This document shows positions 1 through 7,514 of a stretch of 22,350 bases of DNA, piece by piece. This DNA is from a virus. The stretch's first letter is position 1. Each line of letters begins with the position of its first letter. Position numbers and translations under genes: made by a program. Below the pieces are notes generated by a model. It saw only the letters and a program-made list of their open reading frames with translations, had not been told where the DNA came from and ran no database searches. The DNA is taken from the IMG/VR virus record IMGVR_UViG_3300046002_003626, positions 1 through 22,350 of that record; one strand, written 5' to 3'.

Positions 1-37
1 GGGGCTGGCCTTTACACCAGCCCCAAACCTTTGTCAA
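1..37 (-). promoter_or_regulatory. Leftward promoter built into an inverted repeat
   Basis: On the minus strand TTGACA (32-37) is followed after exactly 17 bp by TAAAGG (9-14). The -10 region is the loop and edge of a perfect 8-bp inverted repeat: GGGGCTGG (1-8), loop CCTTTACA (9-16), CCAGCCCC (17-24). The TGA stop codon of the gene at 34-429 lies inside the -35 hexamer. The same arrangement recurs at 1592-1628 with two compensatory base-pair changes in the stem. Transcription would run left, out of the window. The inverted repeat could be an operator or an RNA hairpin. Confidence 0.55.
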
Positions 38-429
38 CCCTTCAAAAGCTGGCGAGCGGCAGCAACACCATCCGACAACAGATCAATTTCCGCATCATTC
101 AAAACAATGACGGTGGCGTCCATTTGTGTTTTAACGGCTCGCCAGCGGCGGTCCAAAGCGTGAATAGCTGTAAGCTGACGTTCCGTCCAATAGTAATAAG
201 ATGGCGTTAAGCCATGGTCCACATATCTCATAAGAACCTCGCTATCAGCTAAACGCTTAATCAGCGCTTTCTTAGTATTCGGGAACCACGACCGAGCAAG
301 ACGCTCTTTAGTTACGCGACGAACAATGTCCTCATATTTAGCAGCCATTAGAACGCTAAGGGCTTCAAATGTCTCCAGTGCGATATTGATAGTTTCGCGA
401 GTGTCGCGGTGGTTAACAGTGGCTTCCAC
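34..429 (-). CDS. Hypothetical early phage protein, 131 aa
   Basis: I do not recognise the family. The open frame reaches an ATG at 462, but that ATG lies between the -35 and -10 boxes of the promoter at 453-481 and so cannot be on the transcript. The GTG at 427-429 has GGAGAG five bases upstream and is chosen as the start, giving a product beginning VEATVNHRDT with Met first. The protein is soluble, mixed alpha, rich in Arg/Lys in the middle (RRVTKERLARSW) and has an aromatic patch (PSYYYWTERQ) near residue 80. It has no signal peptide or membrane span. It is the last gene of the leftward cluster seen here. Its TGA stop sits in the -35 box of another leftward promoter. An internal Met (MAAKYED) is a possible but less well supported start. 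Confidence 0.7.
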   Translation of the reverse strand: MEATVNHRDTRETINIALETFEALSVLMAAKYEDIVRRVTKERLARSWFPNTKKALIKRLADSEVLMRYVDHGLTPSYYYWTERQLTAIHALDRRWRAVKTQMDATVIVLNDAEIDLLSDGVAAARQLLKG

Positions 430-452
430 GTGATCTCTCCGGTTGATGAGAT

Positions 453-481
453 ATAATACCATGTTTCGACAATATGTCTAA
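453..481 (-). promoter_or_regulatory. Leftward extended -10 promoter for the 131-aa gene
   Basis: On the minus strand TTAGAC (476-481), 17 bp spacer, TATTAT (453-458), preceded by TGG (an extended -10). It closely matches the promoter at 3553-3581 (TTGGAC-17-TATTAT, same TGG). Both have a similar GTAACAnTAyGTGAT stretch just upstream of the -35. The expected start near 446 leaves a leader of about 17 nt carrying GGAGAG before the GTG at 429. Confidence 0.7.
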
Positions 482-498
482 TCACGTATTGTTACAGT

Positions 499-563
499 CT
501 AACCCATTGATTTTGCTAGCAAATTTCGGGGGGCCCCAAATCCTCAATGAAATCAAGGACTTA
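499..563. repeat. GGGGCCCC intergenic repeat, copy 1
   Basis: First of five related intergenic elements. Read on the plus strand, it has the conserved order CTAACCCATTGAT, an AT-rich stretch, GGGGGGCCCC, then AAATCCTCAATGAAATCAAGGACTTA in diverged form. It resembles copy 5 (3599-3663) most, sharing GCTAnnAAATTTnGGGGG. It lies between the promoter at 453-481 and the end of the 49-aa gene. The role is unknown; the GGGGCCCC core is self-complementary. Confidence 0.6.
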
Positions 564-576
564 GGTTTGTCAACCC

Positions 577-726
577 CTAACGACGGAAAATTGTCGCCAA
601 AATGATGAGAATATAAAGAAGCAGGGCTGGGTACATCGGAGCCCAGACCAGCCACCATGACCAGTCAATAACGCCAAGCAACTTGAGAACGATGAAAATC
701 ACCGTAAGAGTTTCGAGCAGTCCCAT
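577..726 (-). CDS. Small phage membrane protein, 49 aa ('transmembrane Fragile-X-F'-like)
   Basis: The ATG at 724-726 is preceded by GGAG seven bases upstream, and the frame ends with TAG at 577-579. The product has two hydrophobic stretches (about residues 6-20 and 27-46) around the very characteristic block VLKLLGVIDWSWWLVWAP, and ends in RR. This block matches a small membrane protein common in phages of Proteobacteria and often labelled 'transmembrane Fragile-X-F protein'; its function is unknown. The gene lies downstream of the 107-aa gene and probably shares its transcript. A role in host-membrane takeover or lysis support is possible but is inference. Confidence 0.75.
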   Translation of the reverse strand: MGLLETLTVIFIVLKLLGVIDWSWWLVWAPMYPALLLYILIILATIFRR

Positions 727-778
727 AGTAAATCTCCAAGTTAAAGAGGTAGCGGGGCTTTCACCCGCCCGCTTTTAC

Positions 779-1102
779 TTAGGCCGCGAAGGCGTCCCGG
801 ATGGCCTGAAGCGCGGGCTTCGGGGCCTTATCCAGACCGTCAAGGTTGCCCTCGACAAACTTCGCGATTTCCGCGACCAGCAGTTCCTTACGCTCAACCG
901 GCTCGCCGGTCTTCGTAACAGCGGCCTTTTTCTGATAAGGCAGCTTCATGCTGTTGATCTTGGCGATCACCATGCGACCGGTGAACGACGGGCCGAACGA
1001 TTCGGCAAGGCGATTGGCCACGGCCTGATTCAGGACGGGTTCGTCCCGGATAGCCTGTTCCATCGCCGGGGTGTACTTCGAAGCGGTTTTGTTGGTAGCC
1101 AT
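779..1102 (-). CDS. Conserved phage protein, 107 aa, possible HTH DNA-binding
   Basis: The ATG is at 1100-1102 with a purine-rich AAAAGGA about 14 bases upstream, a rather long spacing. Residues 9-60 have the layout of a small phage family with YTPAMEQAIRDEPVLNQAVANRLAESFG followed by RMVIAKINSMKLPYQKK. This reads as two or three helices ending in a recognition-helix-like VIAKINSM, and then a basic TKTGEPVERK turn. I recognise the pattern from small conserved phage proteins but cannot give a proven function; DNA binding is inference. It is transcribed from its own promoter (1154-1182), and a hairpin (1128-1144) sits at the predicted 5' end of the mRNA. GC content is higher than in the structural genes. 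Confidence 0.8.
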   Translation of the reverse strand: MATNKTASKYTPAMEQAIRDEPVLNQAVANRLAESFGPSFTGRMVIAKINSMKLPYQKKAAVTKTGEPVERKELLVAEIAKFVEGNLDGLDKAPKPALQAIRDAFAA

Positions 1103-1127
1103 GTTAGTTATTTATTTCCTTTTAAGT

Positions 1128-1144
1128 GGGCGGCCCATCCGCCC
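1128..1144 (-). other. 5'-UTR hairpin of the 107-aa gene
   Basis: GGGCGG / ATGGG / CCGCCC on the minus strand forms a perfect 6-bp GC stem with a 5-nt loop. With the -10 box at 1154-1159, transcription should start near 1147, so the hairpin would lie almost at the mRNA 5' end and ahead of the ribosome binding site. Known 5' hairpins of this kind slow RNA decay; that role here is inference. Confidence 0.5.
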
Positions 1145-1153
1145 GATTTGTCT

Positions 1154-1182
1154 AATGTAGTCTCTTTGACTTAGGAAGTCAA
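1154..1182 (-). promoter_or_regulatory. Leftward promoter of the 107-aa gene
   Basis: Minus strand TTGACT (1177-1182), 17 bp spacer, TACATT (1154-1159). It lies three bases downstream of the TAG stop (1186-1188) of the preceding 67-aa gene, so the 107-aa gene can be made independently of or in addition to the upstream transcript. Confidence 0.65.
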
Positions 1183-1185
1183 CAC

Positions 1186-1389
1186 CTATTTTTCAGAAAG
1201 TCGCTTTTCGTAGTAGCCGACGAAACCGGCAGCAGTCCGCACGCCGTCGGCTTCATTAGCCGTCAGCTTGGCTTTCAGAGCCGCATCGGCGGCGGGATAG
1301 TCGGTGGTCACGTTCGCCAGACGCACTTCGGCGGCGGCTTGAATGCCTTTCCAGAGCGTGAGGCGGGCTTGGAGATCGGGGAATGCCAT
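1186..1389 (-). CDS. Hypothetical protein, 67 aa
   Basis: The ATG at 1387-1389 has AAGGAAA six bases upstream; the stop is TAG at 1186-1188. The product is alanine-rich and largely helical (DLQARLTLWKGIQAAAEVRL and the C-terminal GFVGYYEKRLSEK), with no membrane span or known motif. I do not recognise it. It is the first gene behind the divergent promoter module at 1415-1499. It is probably expressed together with the 107- and 49-aa genes downstream. Confidence 0.7.
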   Translation of the reverse strand: MAFPDLQARLTLWKGIQAAAEVRLANVTTDYPAADAALKAKLTANEADGVRTAAGFVGYYEKRLSEK

Positions 1390-1414
1390 GTCGTTTCCTT
1401 TTCTTGACCTTCAT

Positions 1415-1443
1415 AATGTAGGCCTTTGGGGTGATTATGTAAA
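1415..1443 (-). promoter_or_regulatory. Leftward promoter of divergent module A
   Basis: Minus strand TTTACA (1438-1443), 17 bp, TACATT (1415-1420). It drives the 67-aa gene with a leader of about 20 nt that carries a Shine-Dalgarno site. The -35 box is one base from the palindrome at 1445-1458, the same geometry as in modules B and C. Confidence 0.65.
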
Positions 1444-1444
1444 G

Positions 1445-1458
1445 TTACAAATTTGTAA
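1445..1458. promoter_or_regulatory. Palindrome TTACAAATTTGTAA, module A
   Basis: A perfect 14-bp palindrome between two divergent promoters: 1 bp from the leftward -35 box and 12 bp from the rightward -35 box (1471). The same site recurs at 2270-2283 (one central base changed) and 2842-2855 with the same spacing. It is a likely operator or activator site for a dimeric regulator; the binding protein is not identifiable here. Confidence 0.7.
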
Positions 1459-1470
1459 TGTTATACGGCC

Positions 1471-1499
1471 TTGACAGGCCCTTGGCTATGTGCTAAAAT
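1471..1499 (+). promoter_or_regulatory. Rightward promoter of module A, no gene ahead
   Basis: TTGACA (1471-1476), 17 bp, TAAAAT (1494-1499), a near-consensus sigma70 promoter. Downstream on the plus strand (1500-1625) there is no ATG-started frame. A transcript would begin near GGCGCGCC, contain CCCAAAAG/CTTTTGGG complementarity (about 1507-1552), and run into the 3' end of the opposing 77-aa gene. A small or antisense RNA is the simplest reading. Confidence 0.6.
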
Positions 1500-1523
1500 C
1501 GGCGCGCCCAAAAGCCAGGCGCG

Positions 1524-1589
1524 CTAAGTCATTGATTTCATTGGACTTTTGGGGCCCCTCCAAAAAAGCGTTATAATTCAAGCAGTTAG
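1524..1589. repeat. GGGGCCCC intergenic repeat, copy 2 (core inverted)
   Basis: It starts with CTAAGTCATTGAT as in copies 3 and 5, but the second half (about 1548-1579) is the reverse complement of copy 4. On the minus strand it reads TTGAATTATAA, CGCTTTTTTGGA, GGGGCCCC, AAAAG. The inversion pivots on the self-complementary GGGGCCCC. Confidence 0.6.
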
Positions 1590-1591
1590 CT

Positions 1592-1628
1592 GGGATTGGC
1601 CTTTACACCAATCCCAAGCCGGTGTCAA
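1592..1628 (-). promoter_or_regulatory. Second inverted-repeat promoter, leftward
   Basis: Minus strand TTGACA (1623-1628), 17 bp, TAAAGG (1600-1605). The -10 lies in an 8-bp inverted repeat, GGGATTGG (1592-1599) / CCTTTACA / CCAATCCC (1608-1615). The loop is identical to that at 9-16, and the stem differs by two compensatory pairs. As at 1-37, the upstream gene's TGA stop (1625-1627) lies inside the -35 box. It has no T-run, so it does not look like an intrinsic terminator. Confidence 0.55.
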
Positions 1629-1858
1629 TTGAAATCTAGGGTAGGGTTTGTATTCATTTCCGGGCGGGGAAGCCTTCTCCACGTTTGCTCGTAAATGTCA
1701 TATCCACCGTTTCTTAGAAATTCTTGGTTGTAACCACGTGTCTTGAAGTCTTCCGCACAATAAGCTTGCGCCTCTTCTAACGTGGGAAACTCTTTGACGA
1801 ATTCGTATGAGGTTTGAATTCTCTCAATCCAGCATTCGGCCCTAAACATTAGTTCCAT
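1625..1858 (-). CDS. Hypothetical protein, 77 aa
   Basis: The ATG at 1856-1858 has AGGAAAG directly upstream. The frame overlaps the preceding 52-aa membrane gene by 17 bases, which suggests translational coupling. The N-terminal part (FRAECWIERIQTSYEFVKEF, then LEEAQAYCAEDFKTRGY) looks like a small beta-strand/helix fold of the kind seen in many unnamed early phage proteins; the C-terminus is polar. No known family is recognised. It is the last gene of the 2235-1625 operon. Confidence 0.75.
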   Translation of the reverse strand: MELMFRAECWIERIQTSYEFVKEFPTLEEAQAYCAEDFKTRGYNQEFLRNGGYDIYEQTWRRLPRPEMNTNPTLDFN

Positions 1859-2000
1859 CTTTCCTAGTAAGGGCTAGCAGGATGCTAGCCAGAGCAACCC
1901 ATGTTGCAACGCAAAACAGCCAGAATGAATCGGCCTCGTAAGAAGCATAGAACATCAGGGGCGTGAAGGCAAGCCCTATGGACCCAATAATTTTAGTCAT
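1842..2000 (-). CDS. Small membrane protein, 52 aa
   Basis: The frame can be extended to an ATG at 2114, but the extra 38 residues only read through the preceding gene in another frame. The ATG at 1998-2000 overlaps the end of that gene by 8 bases, as usual in this cluster, and is preferred. From it, the product has two membrane spans (about residues 4-19 and 26-43), a short loop (YEADS) and a basic tail (TRKDGT). No family is recognised. It is the middle gene of a three-gene operon. Confidence 0.7.
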   Translation of the reverse strand: MTKIIGSIGLAFTPLMFYASYEADSFWLFCVATWVALASILLALTRKDGTNV

Positions 2001-2235
2001 AGCCAAGCACCTCGTTGACAGCGGCAGTGCCGCCCATGAGTGCGGCTTCCCGCACTTGCTCGGTGTGTTGTTCCGAGAGTTGTTCGCGCGAATAGCGCGG
2101 GGCGATACCGGCATCGGTACCCTTGTGATACCATTGACGGTCCGTCAGGCCGAGGCTTTCGCCTTGCGCGACGGTGGTGACTTTGCCACCCTTGGCGAGG
2201 AAGGCGGCGATCAGGTCGTTCGTGTTCGTTTTCAT
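1993..2235 (-). CDS. Small conserved phage-type protein, 80 aa
   Basis: The open frame extends to 2268, but that region is the promoter (2241-2268). The ATG at 2233-2235 is therefore used; it sits only five bases from the -10 box. Residues 7-20 (DLIAAFLAKGGKVT) match a motif I have seen in many small uncharacterised phage proteins ('FLAKGGKVT'). The rest is helical and polar (SREQLSEQHTEQVREAAL). Function is unknown. It begins the 2235-1625 operon. The first codons (ATGAAAACG) resemble those of the genes at 3546 and 2805. Confidence 0.75.
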   Translation of the reverse strand: MKTNTNDLIAAFLAKGGKVTTVAQGESLGLTDRQWYHKGTDAGIAPRYSREQLSEQHTEQVREAALMGGTAAVNEVLGYD

Positions 2236-2240
2236 TCCTA

Positions 2241-2268
2241 ATAGTACCATAAAAAGTGGGTTTGTCAC
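2241..2268 (-). promoter_or_regulatory. Leftward promoter of module B, leaderless geometry
   Basis: Minus strand GTGACA (2263-2268), 16 bp, TACTAT (2241-2246) with TGG ahead of the -10 (extended -10). The ATG of the 80-aa gene begins five bases after the -10 (TAGGA, ATG), so transcription should start at or next to the start codon. The palindrome at 2270 is one base from the -35. Confidence 0.6.
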
Positions 2269-2269
2269 A

Positions 2270-2283
2270 TTACAAGTTTGTAA
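2270..2283. promoter_or_regulatory. Palindrome TTACAAGTTTGTAA, module B
   Basis: Same site as at 1445 and 2842 with one base changed at the centre. It lies 1 bp from the leftward -35 and 11 bp from the rightward -35 at 2295. Confidence 0.65.
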
Positions 2284-2294
2284 TGTTAAAAGGC

Positions 2295-2323
2295 TTGACC
2301 TTGGCCAGTGTTTAGGCTAAAGA
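2295..2323 (+). promoter_or_regulatory. Rightward promoter of module B, no gene ahead
   Basis: TTGACC (2295-2300), 17 bp, TAAAGA (2318-2323). It is weaker than its relatives at 1471 and 2868 but holds the same position relative to the palindrome. No plus-strand gene follows; the transcript would cross repeat copy 3 and run antisense into the 73-aa gene. Confidence 0.45.
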
Positions 2324-2333
2324 GCCAGGCGAC

Positions 2334-2399
2334 CTAAGTCATTGATATATAAGGCTTTTTTGCGGGGGCCCCAAAAATCTAATGATTTCAAGGGTTTAT
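2334..2399. repeat. GGGGCCCC intergenic repeat, copy 3
   Basis: The order is CTAAGTCATTGAT, ATATAAGGCTTTTTTGCGG, GGGCCCC, AAAAATCTAATGATTTCAAGG, GTTTA. The right half matches copies 4 and 5 closely (AAAAACCTAACGATTTCAAG there). Confidence 0.65.
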
Positions 2400-2402
2400 C
2401 TG

Positions 2403-2624
2403 TCAAGTAATTTCTTTCATGAGTTTTTCGATGTGACGCAGGGTCACGATAACGTCGGTTTCATTAATGAATCGGTGATGATGATCTGCCTCATATTCAA
2501 ATTCGCCAGCAAATGCTGCGCCTAGCGTTTCGCCAGTGAAGCAACCGCGCCCCCAATTCAGGAGGAACACCATAAGGTTAAATTGGTTCAAGTCGGGAAC
2601 CACACGATAGGGCATAACTTGCAT
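2403..2624 (-). CDS. Hypothetical protein, 73 aa
   Basis: The ATG at 2622-2624 overlaps the TGA of the 29-aa gene by one base (TGATG), so it is probably translated by coupling; Met4 is an alternative start. The protein has a hydrophobic, aromatic N-terminal half (QFNLMVFLLNWGRGCFTG), a HHHR run near residue 49 and a helical C-terminus (LRHIEKLMKEIT). No family is recognised and no clear membrane span is seen. It is the last gene of the 2805-2403 operon; its TGA stop lies in a TTGACA hexamer (2401-2406) with only a poor -10 ahead. Confidence 0.7.
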   Translation of the reverse strand: MQVMPYRVVPDLNQFNLMVFLLNWGRGCFTGETLGAAFAGEFEYEADHHHRFINETDVIVTLRHIEKLMKEIT

Positions 2625-2713
2625 CAGAAATTCACCAGAAGATAGACGGATAAGGCGAGAAGGCCAATGGCGATCAGGCTGGACGGATTGAAGATTGCGC
2701 GAATGATTTTCAT
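2624..2713 (-). CDS. Membrane micropeptide, 29 aa
   Basis: A short frame joined at both ends: its ATG (2711-2713) shares one base with the TAA of the 30-aa gene, and its TGA shares one base with the next ATG. The product starts MKIIRAIFNPSS and continues into a hydrophobic span (about residues 12-28, LIAIGLLALSVYLLV). It is a single-span peptide with a positively charged N-terminus. The perfect stop-start nesting on both sides is the main evidence that it is real. Function is unknown. Confidence 0.65.
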   Translation of the reverse strand: MKIIRAIFNPSSLIAIGLLALSVYLLVNF

Positions 2714-2805
2714 TAGAGGACCATCCCGATGAAGCGAACGATGATGCCGTTAACCTCTCCGTAGAGGAAGTTTCCGATTTGAACGATTTTCTCTTGCGTT
2801 TCCAT
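2713..2805 (-). CDS. Micropeptide, 30 aa, leaderless candidate
   Basis: The ATG at 2803-2805 lies six bases after the TATATT box (2812-2817), so it is probably the first codon of the mRNA. The sequence METQEKIVQIGNFLYGEVNG then IIVRFIGMVL has an amphipathic first half and a hydrophobic end. Its first codons (ATGGAAACGCAA) resemble the other two leaderless candidates (ATGAAAACG). It ends in TAA overlapping the next ATG. It could be a leader peptide that lets ribosomes enter the operon, or a true small protein. Confidence 0.6.
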   Translation of the reverse strand: METQEKIVQIGNFLYGEVNGIIVRFIGMVL

Positions 2806-2811
2806 TCTTAG

Positions 2812-2840
2812 AATATAGGCCTTTGCCCTGACTAATGCAA
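2812..2840 (-). promoter_or_regulatory. Leftward promoter of module C, leaderless geometry
   Basis: Minus strand TTGCAT (2835-2840), 17 bp, TATATT (2812-2817), then six bases (CTAAGA) and ATG. The palindrome at 2842 is one base behind the -35. Confidence 0.65.
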
Positions 2841-2841
2841 A

Positions 2842-2855
2842 TTACAAATTTGTAA
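2842..2855. promoter_or_regulatory. Palindrome TTACAAATTTGTAA, module C
   Basis: Identical to the site at 1445-1458; 1 bp from the leftward -35 and 12 bp from the rightward -35 at 2868. Confidence 0.7.
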
Positions 2856-2867
2856 TGTTGCACGGTA

Positions 2868-2896
2868 TTGACACGCTGCGGCTCTTACTGTAAAAT
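2868..2896 (+). promoter_or_regulatory. Rightward promoter of module C, no gene ahead
   Basis: TTGACA (2868-2873), 17 bp, TAAAAT (2891-2896), followed by CGGCGCG as in module A. No plus-strand gene follows before 2990. The presumed RNA would contain TTTTGGGG (2906-2913) and CCCCAAAA (2955-2962), which can pair. Confidence 0.6.
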
Positions 2897-2920
2897 CGGC
2901 GCGAATTTTGGGGGTCAGCG

Positions 2921-2985
2921 TAAGTGTTTGAATTATAAGGCTTTTTTTGGAGGGGCCCCAAAAACCTAACGATTTCAAGGGCTTA
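2921..2985. repeat. GGGGCCCC intergenic repeat, copy 4
   Basis: TAAGTGTTTGAATTATAAGG, a T-run, GGAGGGGCCCC, then AAAAACCTAACGATTTCAAG and GGCTTA. The left half matches the inverted half of copy 2; the right half is identical to that of copy 5. Confidence 0.65.
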
Positions 2986-2989
2986 GTTC

Positions 2990-3190
2990 TTAGAAGACGC
3001 TAACTATGGATTTCGCAGGGGGCGTGATCTTTACTGTCAGTTGGTTGCAGTATACTCGATAGGTGAAGTTGTTATCAGAGTCGTTCTCAAGTTCGGCGAT
3101 ACGTTCCTCAACCTCAACACAGCTTTCGAATTCCTCGACTGTGTAAAGATATTCACCGTTACAACGATAAACGAGAAGGGCGTAGTTCAT
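2990..3190 (-). CDS. Hypothetical protein, 66 aa
   Basis: The ATG at 3188-3190 follows the 20-aa gene's TAA by one base and has AAGGAAA upstream. The product starts with strands (NYALLVYRCNGEYLYTVEEF), then a helix with acidic residues (VEVEERIAELENDSDN) and a second strand pair (FTYRVYCNQLTVKI). This is an alpha/beta layout of about 60 residues common in phage early proteins of unknown function. It is the last gene of the 3546-2990 operon. Confidence 0.75.
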   Translation of the reverse strand: MNYALLVYRCNGEYLYTVEEFESCVEVEERIAELENDSDNNFTYRVYCNQLTVKITPPAKSIVSVF

Positions 3191-3191
3191 A

Positions 3192-3254
3192 TTACATTTT
3201 CCTTAGGATAAAGATGAAAGCGATACCGAAGATGATTGCTGCTAGGATGCGCAT
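3192..3254 (-). CDS. Membrane micropeptide, 20 aa
   Basis: The ATG at 3252-3254 has GGAGA four bases upstream, a good ribosome binding site placed inside the preceding gene, which it overlaps by 13 bases. The product is one hydrophobic span (ILAAIIFGIAFIFIL) with Arg2 at the front and RKM at the end. The Shine-Dalgarno site, span-like composition and tight packing support a real gene, but at 20 residues chance cannot be excluded. Confidence 0.5.
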   Translation of the reverse strand: MRILAAIIFGIAFIFILRKM

Positions 3255-3406
3255 ATAATCTCCATTTGAAATACGAAGCCCAAGTCCCAAAGGTCCGCAG
3301 TCTCTTGCGAAGCTAGAAGTCTAAGGCCTTCACGATATGGATTGTCTTTAATTGTAGAGCCCGATTTAGCTGCGGCTATACCTTCCATGAATGCGGGGTT
3401 AGCCAT
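3242..3406 (-). CDS. Small protein with RMF/CrpP-like pattern, 54 aa
   Basis: Its ATG (3404-3406) shares one base with the preceding TAA (TAATG). The product reads NPAFMEGIAAAKSG, then DNPYREGLRL, then ADLWDLGFVFQME. This spacing (a ..G..A...G helix, a NPY turn, and W..GF) resembles the short ribosome modulation factor-like proteins often carried by phages. If so, it would act on ribosomes or another host target; that is inference from a pattern, not an alignment. The C-terminus (EIICAS) overlaps the 20-aa gene. Confidence 0.6.
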   Translation of the reverse strand: MANPAFMEGIAAAKSGSTIKDNPYREGLRLLASQETADLWDLGFVFQMEIICAS

Positions 3407-3546
3407 TAGTTCTTCTTTCCGAAAGCATTGTTGATCGTATTCAGTGCGTGTTGGATTGCTTCTTCCGCCGTCGGGGCCTTAGCCATATGGTCATAGAAGC
3501 CGTGGCGGCGGAAGAAGGCTTCTTGGTGGCTCATCTGCGTTTTCAT
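3406..3546 (-). CDS. Hypothetical protein, 46 aa, leaderless candidate
   Basis: The ATG at 3544-3546 lies six bases after the -10 box TATTAT (3553-3558), with AGGA directly before it, so the mRNA probably begins at or just before the start codon. The product is polar and helical (SHQEAFFRRHGFYDHMAK, then TAEEAIQHALNTINNAFGKK). No family is recognised. It is the first gene of a four-gene operon with the 54-, 20- and 66-aa genes. Confidence 0.7.
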   Translation of the reverse strand: MKTQMSHQEAFFRRHGFYDHMAKAPTAEEAIQHALNTINNAFGKKN

Positions 3547-3552
3547 TCCTAT

Positions 3553-3581
3553 ATAATACCAGAACCCATGCGAATGTCCAA
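3553..3581 (-). promoter_or_regulatory. Leftward extended -10 promoter, leaderless geometry
   Basis: Minus strand TTGGAC (3576-3581), 17 bp ending in TGG, TATTAT (3553-3558), then ATAGGA and ATG. Sister of the promoter at 453-481; both have repeat copies 5 and 1 directly behind them and lack the TTACAAATTTGTAA palindrome. Confidence 0.7.
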
Positions 3582-3598
3582 TCACATAATGTTACAGC

Positions 3599-3663
3599 GT
3601 AAGTCATTGATATTGCTACGAAATTTGCGGGGGCCCCAAAAACCTAACGATTTCAAGGGCTTA
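3599..3663. repeat. GGGGCCCC intergenic repeat, copy 5
   Basis: GTAAGTCATTGATATTGC, TACGAAATTTGCGG, GGGCCCC, AAAAACCTAACGATTTCAAG, GGCTTA. Left half as in copy 1, right half as in copy 4. Confidence 0.65.
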
Positions 3664-3667
3664 ACTG

Positions 3668-3916
3668 TTAGTTGCTGCTCCATTTGTCGAAGAAGCCATC
3701 GCAGAAACAATCTGCCATATAGTCATCCTCAAACGGGAGGATGAAGGCACGATCAACAATCTTGCCGTCCTTAATCAAAGTGACGACAACTTCCTCAACG
3801 TGGCGAGCAACCTGAAAGGCGTCGCGCGGATTCTTGCCAACATATTCACCGTCATCAACATCAAAGGTGAAGCCTTCGACGGAGGCGGCGATGAACATGG
3901 ATTGAAGCGAGCGCAT
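3668..3916 (-). CDS. Hypothetical protein, 82 aa, first leftward gene
   Basis: The ATG at 3914-3916 has GAGAG about nine bases upstream; Met7 is an alternative. The product has a beta-rich start (FIAASVEGFTFDVDDGEYVG), a NPRDAFQVARHVEEVVVTLI helix-strand block with Lys/Asp turns (KDGKIVDRAFILPF), and an acidic, aromatic C-terminus with two Cys (DDYMADCFCDGFFDKW). No family is recognised. It is the gene closest to the divergent control region and has a strong extended -10 promoter (3943-3948). Confidence 0.75.
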   Translation of the reverse strand: MRSLQSMFIAASVEGFTFDVDDGEYVGKNPRDAFQVARHVEEVVVTLIKDGKIVDRAFILPFEDDYMADCFCDGFFDKWSSN

Positions 3917-3942
3917 AATGTTTTCTCTCTGTTTATGCCCCT

Positions 3943-3948
3943 ATTATA
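3943..3948 (-). promoter_or_regulatory. Leftward extended -10 promoter of the 82-aa gene
   Basis: Minus strand TGTTATAAT is a perfect extended -10 (TGnTATAAT). There is no good -35 at 16-18 bp, as is usual for this promoter type. The start near 3936 gives a leader of about 20 nt before the ATG at 3916. Confidence 0.6.
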
Positions 3949-4093
3949 ACACCGTGATTGAGTTTGTGTGTGAATCTTTTGTGACAGTAAAAAGACTTGC
4001 CCATAGGGGGGTTTCGAGACATGGATTTTGGCACAAACGCCTGCACCCCACCGCGTGCGGTATACTCTACCCAAATTTCCAACTTAGGTGTCA

Positions 4094-4122
4094 AGTATAT
4101 CAAACCCCGACACAATTGTCAA
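4094..4122 (-). promoter_or_regulatory. Second leftward promoter in the divergent region
   Basis: Minus strand TTGACA (4117-4122), 17 bp, TATACT (4094-4099), close to consensus. No convincing gene starts directly downstream. It would produce a leader of roughly 170 nt reaching the 82-aa gene at 3916, crossing the short inverted repeat ACCGC/GCGGT (4050-4061). It may be an upstream or early-acting promoter for the whole leftward cluster. Confidence 0.65.
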
Positions 4123-4154
4123 GAACTTTCCCACCACCACCCAAAATTTAGACC

Positions 4155-4183
4155 TTGACAAGATGCCCCAAACCGACTATAAT
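4155..4183 (+). promoter_or_regulatory. Perfect-consensus rightward promoter of terS
   Basis: TTGACA (4155-4160), exactly 17 bp, TATAAT (4178-4183): no mismatch to the sigma70 consensus. The terS ATG (4191) begins seven bases after the -10, so transcription should start at or next to the A of ATG. There is no room for a Shine-Dalgarno site on the mRNA. Confidence 0.85.
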
Positions 4184-4190
4184 TCGGATT

Positions 4191-4601
4191 ATGCTTACAA
4201 GAATTTCCCCCGAAGGTTTCGATATTGCAAATGCGTGGCTGCAGTATGGCACGATTGCCGAAACAGCTCATGCTCTGCAAGTCACTGAAAGTTCGGTTGT
4301 CACCGCACTAAAGGAGCCTACGATTAAATCGTACCTTGACAGTGTTTATCTTGATATGGGTTATCGTAATCGCAACAAACTCGGTGCTCTGCTGGACAAG
4401 ATTATCGATATTAAAATCCAAGAAGCCGAAGAATCAGAAATGTGGACTAGCAAGGATATTATTGACCTGATTACTCTAGCTCACAAGATGCGTATGGATG
4501 AAATTAAAGCCACTGCCACAAACAATACAACCGTCAACGTTGCAAACTTCAATGAAGGTAGCAACTATGGCAAGCTTATGGAGAAACTAATAAATGGATG
4601 A
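4191..4601 (+). CDS. terS: Terminase small subunit, 136 aa
   Basis: The subunit recognises phage DNA and hands it to the large subunit for packaging. The frame stays open to a TTG at 4155, but that TTG is the first three bases of the -35 box, so the ATG at 4191 is the start. The N-terminal region reads as a helix-turn-helix (FDIANAWLQYGTIAETAHAL, then VTESSVVTALKEPTIKSYL). A helical oligomerisation region follows (LGALLDKIIDIKIQEAEESE, ITLAHKMRMDEIKA), and a polar tail ends the protein. This layout and length fit small terminases, and it lies four genes ahead of terL. The last bases overlap the next start codon by eight bases. Leaderless translation is predicted from the promoter position. 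Confidence 0.8.
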   Translation: MLTRISPEGFDIANAWLQYGTIAETAHALQVTESSVVTALKEPTIKSYLDSVYLDMGYRNRNKLGALLDKIIDIKIQEAEESEMWTSKDIIDLITLAHKMRMDEIKATATNNTTVNVANFNEGSNYGKLMEKLING

Positions 4602-4713
4602 TAAAGAAGTTTTTGTACCAGTAGAAAAACCAGTACTAACCGCAGACGAAATCAATGCTGCACAGATCGCTGCGGCGAAGGCCGCCGGTAAGGAATACCA
4701 AGGTAAGGTATGA
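4594..4713 (+). CDS. Small hypothetical protein, 39 aa
   Basis: The ATG at 4594-4596 lies inside the end of terS (overlap of eight bases), and the TGA overlaps the next ATG by four bases (ATGA). The product is charged and alanine-rich (MDDKEVFVPVEKPVLTADEI, then AAQIAAAKAAGKEYQGKV) and probably a single helix after an extended N-terminus. No family is recognised. Its fit between two coupled genes is the main support. Confidence 0.6.
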   Translation: MDDKEVFVPVEKPVLTADEINAAQIAAAKAAGKEYQGKV

Positions 4714-5108
4714 TCACTTTAGTAAGAGGCCGCGCAGCAGAGCGCACTTTAGCTGCCGACTTAAACGCTAACTTTCTAGACGCCGATAATGACCGCATTG
4801 TTACAACGCTTACAGCGCTAGCAGCTAACGGCACTTTCACAGTTCCGGCCGGATATCGCATTAGTCACGTCGATATTACAAACACGACTGCAAATGCCGT
4901 AACTGGTGGCATACACCTAGGAACTACAGCTCTTGGTTCCGATATTGTAAACGCAAAAGCTATTGGTGCTAACGCACGTGTTAGTGTTGAAACTCTTGAT
5001 AAGCGTTTCTTTGCAGCAGAGCAGATTGTATACATTAGTGCTCACACAGCTTGGAATAGCGCATCGCTTACAGTAGTAATCATGCTCGACCAAATGTCTG
5101 AGGCGTAA
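4710..5108 (+). CDS. Beta-rich virion-type protein, 132 aa
   Basis: The ATG overlaps the preceding TGA, with AAGG upstream. After a short helical start (RAAERTLAADLNANFL) the rest is strand-rich: GTFTVPAGYRISHVDITNTT, then VTGGIHLGTTALGSDIV, and a closing AEQIVYISAHTAWNSASL. The 'VPAGYRI ... NTTANAVTGG ... GTT' pattern is one I know from uncharacterised phage structural proteins near the packaging genes. It could decorate the capsid or form a fibre. The role is inference; membership of the virion is likely but unproven. Confidence 0.65.
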   Translation: MITLVRGRAAERTLAADLNANFLDADNDRIVTTLTALAANGTFTVPAGYRISHVDITNTTANAVTGGIHLGTTALGSDIVNAKAIGANARVSVETLDKRFFAAEQIVYISAHTAWNSASLTVVIMLDQMSEA

Positions 5109-7095: not shown

Positions 7096-7124
7096 TTGAC
7101 ATTTACCCCCATACAGGATATAAT
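7096..7124 (+). promoter_or_regulatory. Perfect-consensus promoter of the HNH gene
   Basis: TTGACA (7096-7101), exactly 17 bp, TATAAT (7119-7124), then CAAAAA and ATG (7131). This is the same geometry as the terS promoter: no consensus mismatch and only six bases from the -10 to the start codon, so a leaderless transcript is predicted. Confidence 0.85.
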
Positions 7125-7130
7125 CAAAAA

Positions 7131-7514
7131 ATGAATACGAGCTTTAAGAGGGATAAAATCAAATATATCCGGGATAAAGCGAAGGGCCGCTATAATAAAG
7201 GTCCGAACTGCGAGATTTGCAATACCAATGAGGAGTTAGAGTTCCACCACTATTATTCCCTGACTCCTTTGTTTAACAAATGGGTTAAAGATAATAAGTT
7301 GAATCTAGACTCAGAGGAGGCTCTACTGGCAGTTCGTGATCAGTTCATAGCTGAACACATGAACGAGCTATATGATGAAGCCGCGACGCTCTGTAAGACG
7401 CACCACGCAAAACTTCACTCCGTGTATGGGAAAGACCCTGCACTAGCAACGGCATTGAAACAAAAGCGCTGGGTTGGTATTCAGCAAGAGAAGTACGCTT
7501 CAAAAGGAGACTAA
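7131..7514 (+). CDS. HNH endonuclease, 127 aa
   Basis: The zinc/HNH signature is visible: CEIC (27-30), EFHHYYSL (catalytic His 39-40), and LCKTHHAKLHSVYG near residue 90, with two paired-Cys positions (C27/C30 and C88 region) to hold zinc. The N-terminus is basic and helical (KRDKIKYIRDKAKGRYNKG). HNH proteins beside the terminase in HK97-like phages can help cut DNA during packaging; others are mobile homing nucleases. Here the gene has its own perfect promoter and is separated from terL by the Ig-like gene, so both readings are open. It is coupled to the portal gene by adjacent stop and start (TAA then ATG). Confidence 0.85.
   Translation: MNTSFKRDKIKYIRDKAKGRYNKGPNCEICNTNEELEFHHYYSLTPLFNKWVKDNKLNLDSEEALLAVRDQFIAEHMNELYDEAATLCKTHHAKLHSVYGKDPALATALKQKRWVGIQQEKYASKGD

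Follow-up and report, generated by a model that had tools for sequence, protein, structure and literature searches.

Do operons of this phage begin, on both strands, with mRNAs whose first bases are the start codon itself, and if so, is this a general translation strategy or one used for particular genes? The question arises from 22,350 bases of a virus known only from metagenomes (record IMGVR_UViG_3300046002_003626; this whole stretch is hereafter the window). Small leftward operons run from about position 3916 down to 34, and rightward genes follow from the small terminase gene at 4191. The initial annotation had placed -10 boxes 5-6 bases before the minus-strand ATGs at 3546, 2235 and 2805 and noted that the first codons were alike; coordinates, spacings and codons are all confirmed, and the similarity of the first codons is real.

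The phage belongs to the T5-like (Demerecviridae-related) group, its terminase and capsid genes being homologous to T5-type genes: TerL is about 49% identical to the TerL of Vibrio T5-like phages, and a fused protease/capsid protein matches T5-like phages. No DNA-level relative of window positions 1-5000 was found among 50,697 phage records, and Rfam gave no match. Contigs carrying TerL relatives have been binned in Gammaproteobacteria, Porticoccaceae and Halieaceae MAGs, as well as in Bacteroidetes and Parcubacteria bins, which hints weakly at a host among marine Gammaproteobacteria. We rejected these MAG bins as a guide to leaderless use by the host, as consensus promoters (4 bins) were located on few contigs, some of them evidently phage.

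Leaderless-type starts in the window

The elements concerned are as follows.

3553..3581, minus strand: promoter TTGGAC-17 (or TGGACA-16)-TATTAT, 6 nt from the ATG at 3546; same -10, discriminator and start in the sister contig L006
3406..3546, minus strand: 46-aa gene with leaderless-type start (ATGAAAACGCAG), first in its operon; stop overlaps the next ATG (TAATG)
3242..3406, minus strand: 54-aa RMF-like protein (Pfam PF04957), second gene of the 3546 operon
2812..2841, minus strand: promoter TTTGCA-18 (or TTGCAT-17)-TATATT, 6 nt from the ATG at 2805; TATATT-CTAAGA identical in L006
2713..2805, minus strand: 30-aa peptide gene with leaderless-type start (ATGGAAACG); TAATG overlap with the next ORF
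2241..2268, minus strand: promoter GTGACA-16-TACTAT, 5 nt from the ATG at 2235; other promoter, same geometry in L006
1993..2235, minus strand: 80-aa gene with leaderless-type start (ATGAAAACG); N-terminus resembles the SutA RNAP-binding domain
4155..4183, plus strand: 12/12 promoter TTGACA-17-TATAAT, 7 nt from the ATG at 4191
4191..4601, plus strand: small terminase subunit gene (TerS, by homology to T5-like TerS) with leaderless-type start
7096..7124, plus strand: 12/12 promoter TTGACA-17-TATAAT, 6 nt from the ATG at 7131
7131..7514, plus strand: 127-aa HNH-endonuclease-like gene (phrog_3497) with leaderless-type start

From -10 box to first codons, the leftward starts read TATTAT-ATAGGA-ATGAAAACG at 3546 (6 nt; -35 TGGACA-16 or TTGGAC-17), TACTAT-TAGGA-ATGAAAACG at 2235 (5 nt; -35 GTGACA-16) and TATATT-CTAAGA-ATGGAAACG at 2805 (6 nt; -35 TTTGCA-18 or TTGCAT-17). 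We scanned all 617 ATGs of the window, on both strands, for a -35 box, a spacer of 16-18, a -10 box with A2 and T6, and 5-7 nt to the ATG, scoring each out of 12. Only six reach at least 9/12: +4191 (12), +7131 (12), -3546 (10), -2805 (9), -2235 (9) and +6165 (9). The last is located inside terL and ties with 2805 and 2235, the promoters of which match the consensus at only 9/12. Five of the six hits fall on gene starts (hypergeometric P ~2e-6, assuming 33 gene starts assigned without a gene finder). Each of the five thus has a -10 box 5-7 nt before the start within a sigma70-type promoter, at 9-10/12 for the leftward starts and 12/12 for the plus-strand pair.

No usable Shine-Dalgarno (SD) sequence precedes these five starts, for which predicted pairing is weak (-3.2 to -4.1 kcal/mol). 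AGGA is found immediately before the ATG at 3546 and 2235, with zero spacing, and is lost at 2235 in L006. In-frame start codons also exist further upstream (GTG 3585 for 3546 and, in the window only, ATG 2250 for 2235); at 3546 and 2805, stop codons alone leave room for an upstream start inside the promoter.

The third codon encodes threonine (ACG or ACA) at 4191, 7131, 3546, 2805 and 2235, a feature noticed post hoc and lacking in the wider clade. The N-terminus of the 1993-2235 product matches PF20661 (SutA RNAP-binding domain; E 3.3e-6, 26.8 bits, below the curated cut-off of 29.3), so that a SutA-like modulator of host RNA polymerase is a possible function; at E 0.1 the phage records contain no relative of this protein, and relatives of three small leftward proteins were likewise not found among isolated phages.

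Other genes of the same phage are preceded by leaders. The leftward starts at 3916, 1389, 1102 and 432 (a GTG) are leadered, most with an SD, and the leaderless layout is therefore not general to leftward operons. Most led genes in the window have AGGAG-type SD motifs, and the portal (AAAGGAGA) and capsid (CTAAGGAGT) genes of the late region are SD-led.

Conservation in a sister contig

The sister contig L006, with a TerL 96% identical to that of the window, contains orthologues of all five leaderless-type starts. Between the two contigs, pN is well below pS in each leftward gene (0.045 and 0.351 for 3546, 0.118 and 0.372 for 2235, 0.064 and 0.336 for 2805): the three are real genes under purifying selection. 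Protein conservation extends from the first methionine on. At 3546 and 2805, the -10 box, discriminator and start are unchanged in L006. The 2235 orthologue has TATATT-TAACTT-ATG instead of TACTAT-TAGGA-ATG; AGGA is gone, no SD is present, and an in-frame TAA lies two codons upstream of the ATG. Here a different promoter has the same geometry, and the leaderless arrangement thus outlives promoter replacement.

Leaderless-type and leadered starts across the clade

We measured -10-to-ATG distances in the window and six related metagenomic records (G001 and G003-G007), considering promoters of at least 11/12 and the first ATG of an ORF of at least 30 codons. Distances for the 71 strong promoters are bimodal, with 11 at 5-7 bases, 3 at 8-19 and 15 at 20-30. 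As a background, an ATG-started ORF (at least 30 codons) lies 5-7 nt downstream of 1.3% of TANNNT hexamers, which gives 0.95 expected in the short class against 11 observed (P ~3e-9). Promoters of the leadered class are followed by SD motifs, for example CGGAGGAAC at G001:13492.

Of 26 related metagenomic loci, 21 have a leaderless TerS start (16 of 20 after dereplication); for the HNH-like start the count is 61 of 86 (11 of 23 after dereplication). These counts are not independent, since the loci share kinship. In contrast, eight isolated T5-like phages of Escherichia, Klebsiella, Vibrio and Aeromonas all have a TerS leader, in most cases including a clear SD. A leader has been acquired at HNH or TerS by some relatives (the L072 group, L044 and L049), and a gene with the N-terminus MNLFYLD has a leaderless start at G004:18512 but a leadered one at G001:5576; orthologues can therefore switch between the two states. 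The exact leaderless pattern has 15 matches in 13 clade records (~445 kb), against 0 for a reversed control pattern, and 2 matches in ~925 kb of isolated T5-like phages. The clade and the isolated phages show no significant difference in their leaderless-to-leadered promoter ratio (P 0.25, small counts), because strong promoters themselves are also commoner in the clade.

Leaderless geometry on both strands, as initially proposed, is thus retained in L006 and, for TerS and HNH, across dozens of metagenomic T5-like loci. That they amount to a phage-wide strategy does not hold: leadered promoters in the clade (15 at 20-30 bases) are no fewer than leaderless ones (11 at 5-7), and most other window genes keep an SD. 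The layout is a selective device beside SD-led genes, not evidence of altered ribosomes.

Other elements at leftward operon junctions

A repeat of about 60 bp is present at leftward operon junctions (499-565, 1524-1590, 2335-2402, 2921-2988 and 3599-3663), with several copies in L006. It forms an imperfect palindrome centred on GGGGCCCC (TAAG..CTTGAAATCGTTAGGTTTTTGGGGCCCC..CAAAAAAGCCTTATAATTCAA..CTTA) and, lacking a T-tract, is not a standard terminator. A distinct palindrome, ATTACAAATTTGTAAT, lies between divergent promoters at 1444-1461, 2268-2285 and 2842-2859. In L006 the distance of two copies from the -10 box is larger by roughly one helical turn (33 versus 22-23 bases), a shift as expected for an activator site, which the palindrome may represent.

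At 1471-1506 and 2868-2903 (plus strand), near-consensus promoters are followed at once by GC-rich CGGCGCG/CGGCGCCG and no ORF. The same arrangement is observed at G004:29795, G004:29884, G005:31951 and G005:31768. Small RNAs or origin elements are possible identities. Finally, hairpins GGGGCTGGTGTAAAGGCCAGCCCC and GGGATTGGTGTAAAGGCCAATCCC (1-24 and 1592-1615, minus strand) are located at operon ends and have no T-tract; their stems show compensating changes while the loop is unchanged.

The RMF-like gene

The initial annotation also pointed to an RMF-like small gene in the cluster and to a possible change in host ribosomes. The ORF is real. Its resemblance to RMF is a weak profile match that includes an NPY motif (PF04957, E 5.8e-4, 20.3 bits), and the scores obtained, 20.3 and 24 bits, are below the curated cut-off of 27.9. 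Among the phage records searched, the gene occurs in the window and L006 alone; the protein has no relative among the 50,697 phage records at E 0.1, and G001-G007 contain no RMF-like match. Five of these (G001, G003, G004, G005 and G006) nevertheless keep a leaderless TerS or HNH start.

Probable leaderless mRNAs and alternative explanations

We consider it likely that these starts belong to true leaderless mRNAs, used selectively at the three leftward operons, TerS and the HNH-like gene, beside SD-led genes. The sigma70 promoters would start transcription at the A of the start codon or within 1-2 bases of it. The resulting 5'-terminal AUG would be recognized as in lambda cI, for the most part by 70S ribosomes that have not dissociated. 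Leaderless starts would in this way serve a subset of operon-first genes, the rest having SD-led leaders. First and second genes of the leftward leaderless operons overlap (TAATG at 3406 and 2713, ATGACTAA near 2000), and translational coupling therefore probably gives access to the downstream genes. The sequence itself shows the geometry, its enrichment and conservation, the lack of a usable SD and the coding status of the genes; where the transcripts begin, the 70S route, the coupling and a regulatory purpose, if any, are what we infer from it.

The promoters might instead be real while the relevant transcripts begin further upstream and carry a weak or SD-independent leader, the closeness of -10 box and ATG being a by-product of compact intergenic regions. 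Compact phage genomes do overlap their signals, other sigma70-like sites exist in the region, and AGGA stands directly before two of the ATGs. Yet the distances are not spread but bimodal, with few at 8-19 nt; the AGGA is unspaced from the ATG and disappears at 2235 in L006 while the geometry stays; and no better minus-strand promoter is present in the few bases immediately preceding each start. We regard this explanation as unlikely. That the spacing and similar first codons arose by chance in an AT-rich phage is the least credible reading, hardly worth entertaining: the 1.3% background shows that such hexamers do occur before ORFs, but strong promoters far exceed it (11 against 0.95), and the geometry is conserved in L006 and related loci.

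A phage-wide switch to leaderless translation may also be envisaged, brought about by a phage-made change in host ribosomes in which the RMF-like protein covers the anti-SD and favors leaderless messages. The idea is coherent, since RMF reportedly captures the 16S rRNA anti-SD (PMC10502375); moreover, selective translation of leaderless mRNAs has been reported for MazF-trimmed ribosomes without anti-SD (PMC12186496), and in both the window and L006 the RMF-like gene comes second in a leaderless-type operon. Against it, good SD motifs are retained in the late structural genes of this phage, which argues for an intact anti-SD; the RMF match is below the cut-off; and the gene is absent from clade records that retain leaderless starts. 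We thus rejected a ribosome change as a general explanation, given the continued use of SD motifs and the restricted occurrence of the RMF-like gene, and we hold such a switch to be very improbable. Slightly more doubtful still is a variant in which the protein would mask the host 16S anti-SD while the phage's own leaderless operons, including that of the protein itself, continued to be translated, so that SD-led host messages would be shut off to the phage's own advantage. Selectively used leaderless mRNAs remain our preferred explanation.

Comparison with known systems

In phages of proteobacteria, the familiar examples of leaderless mRNA are single repressor genes such as lambda cI, a leaderless phage gene transcribed from a host-sigma promoter into an mRNA that starts with the AUG and has no SD. 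The genes described here would be alike in these respects. Lambda cI, however, is a single repressor gene in a temperate phage, whereas in the present T5-like phage the geometry is found at packaging and small leftward genes and is conserved across a clade.

Binding of the 5'-terminal AUG by 70S ribosomes is described for leaderless mRNAs (review PMC9031893), and kasugamycin is reported to spare such transcripts (PMC5230787). In bacteria, the TANNNT of TA-led leaderless genes lies some 12 bases before the start; of 239 gammaproteobacterial genomes surveyed, only 15 contained genes of this type (Zheng 2011, PMC3160421). The spacing is that of 3546, where TANNNT begins about 12 bases before the ATG counted from its first T; TA-led genes come from cellular surveys, while here we deal with a phage and with full -35/-10 promoters. 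Leaderless genes with a -10 motif are also described in Deinococcus-Thermus (PMC12340547), and a paper on phage AR9 notes that leaderless transcripts are frequent in phages (PMC5312081). Within the T5-like phages, with which the window shares T5-type terminase and capsid genes, the eight isolated members with leadered TerS differ from the mostly leaderless group of the window. We found no report of leaderless starts in T5-like phages in the open-access literature searched. Leaderless starts as a kind are already known; their conservation at particular genes of a T5-like clade appears to be new.

If the starts are truly leaderless, their clade-wide, gene-specific occurrence together with orthologues that have gained leaders would provide a natural comparative series on the purpose of leaderless translation. 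They would also be a warning for gene callers that rely on SD motifs, as to where the true starts lie in such phages.
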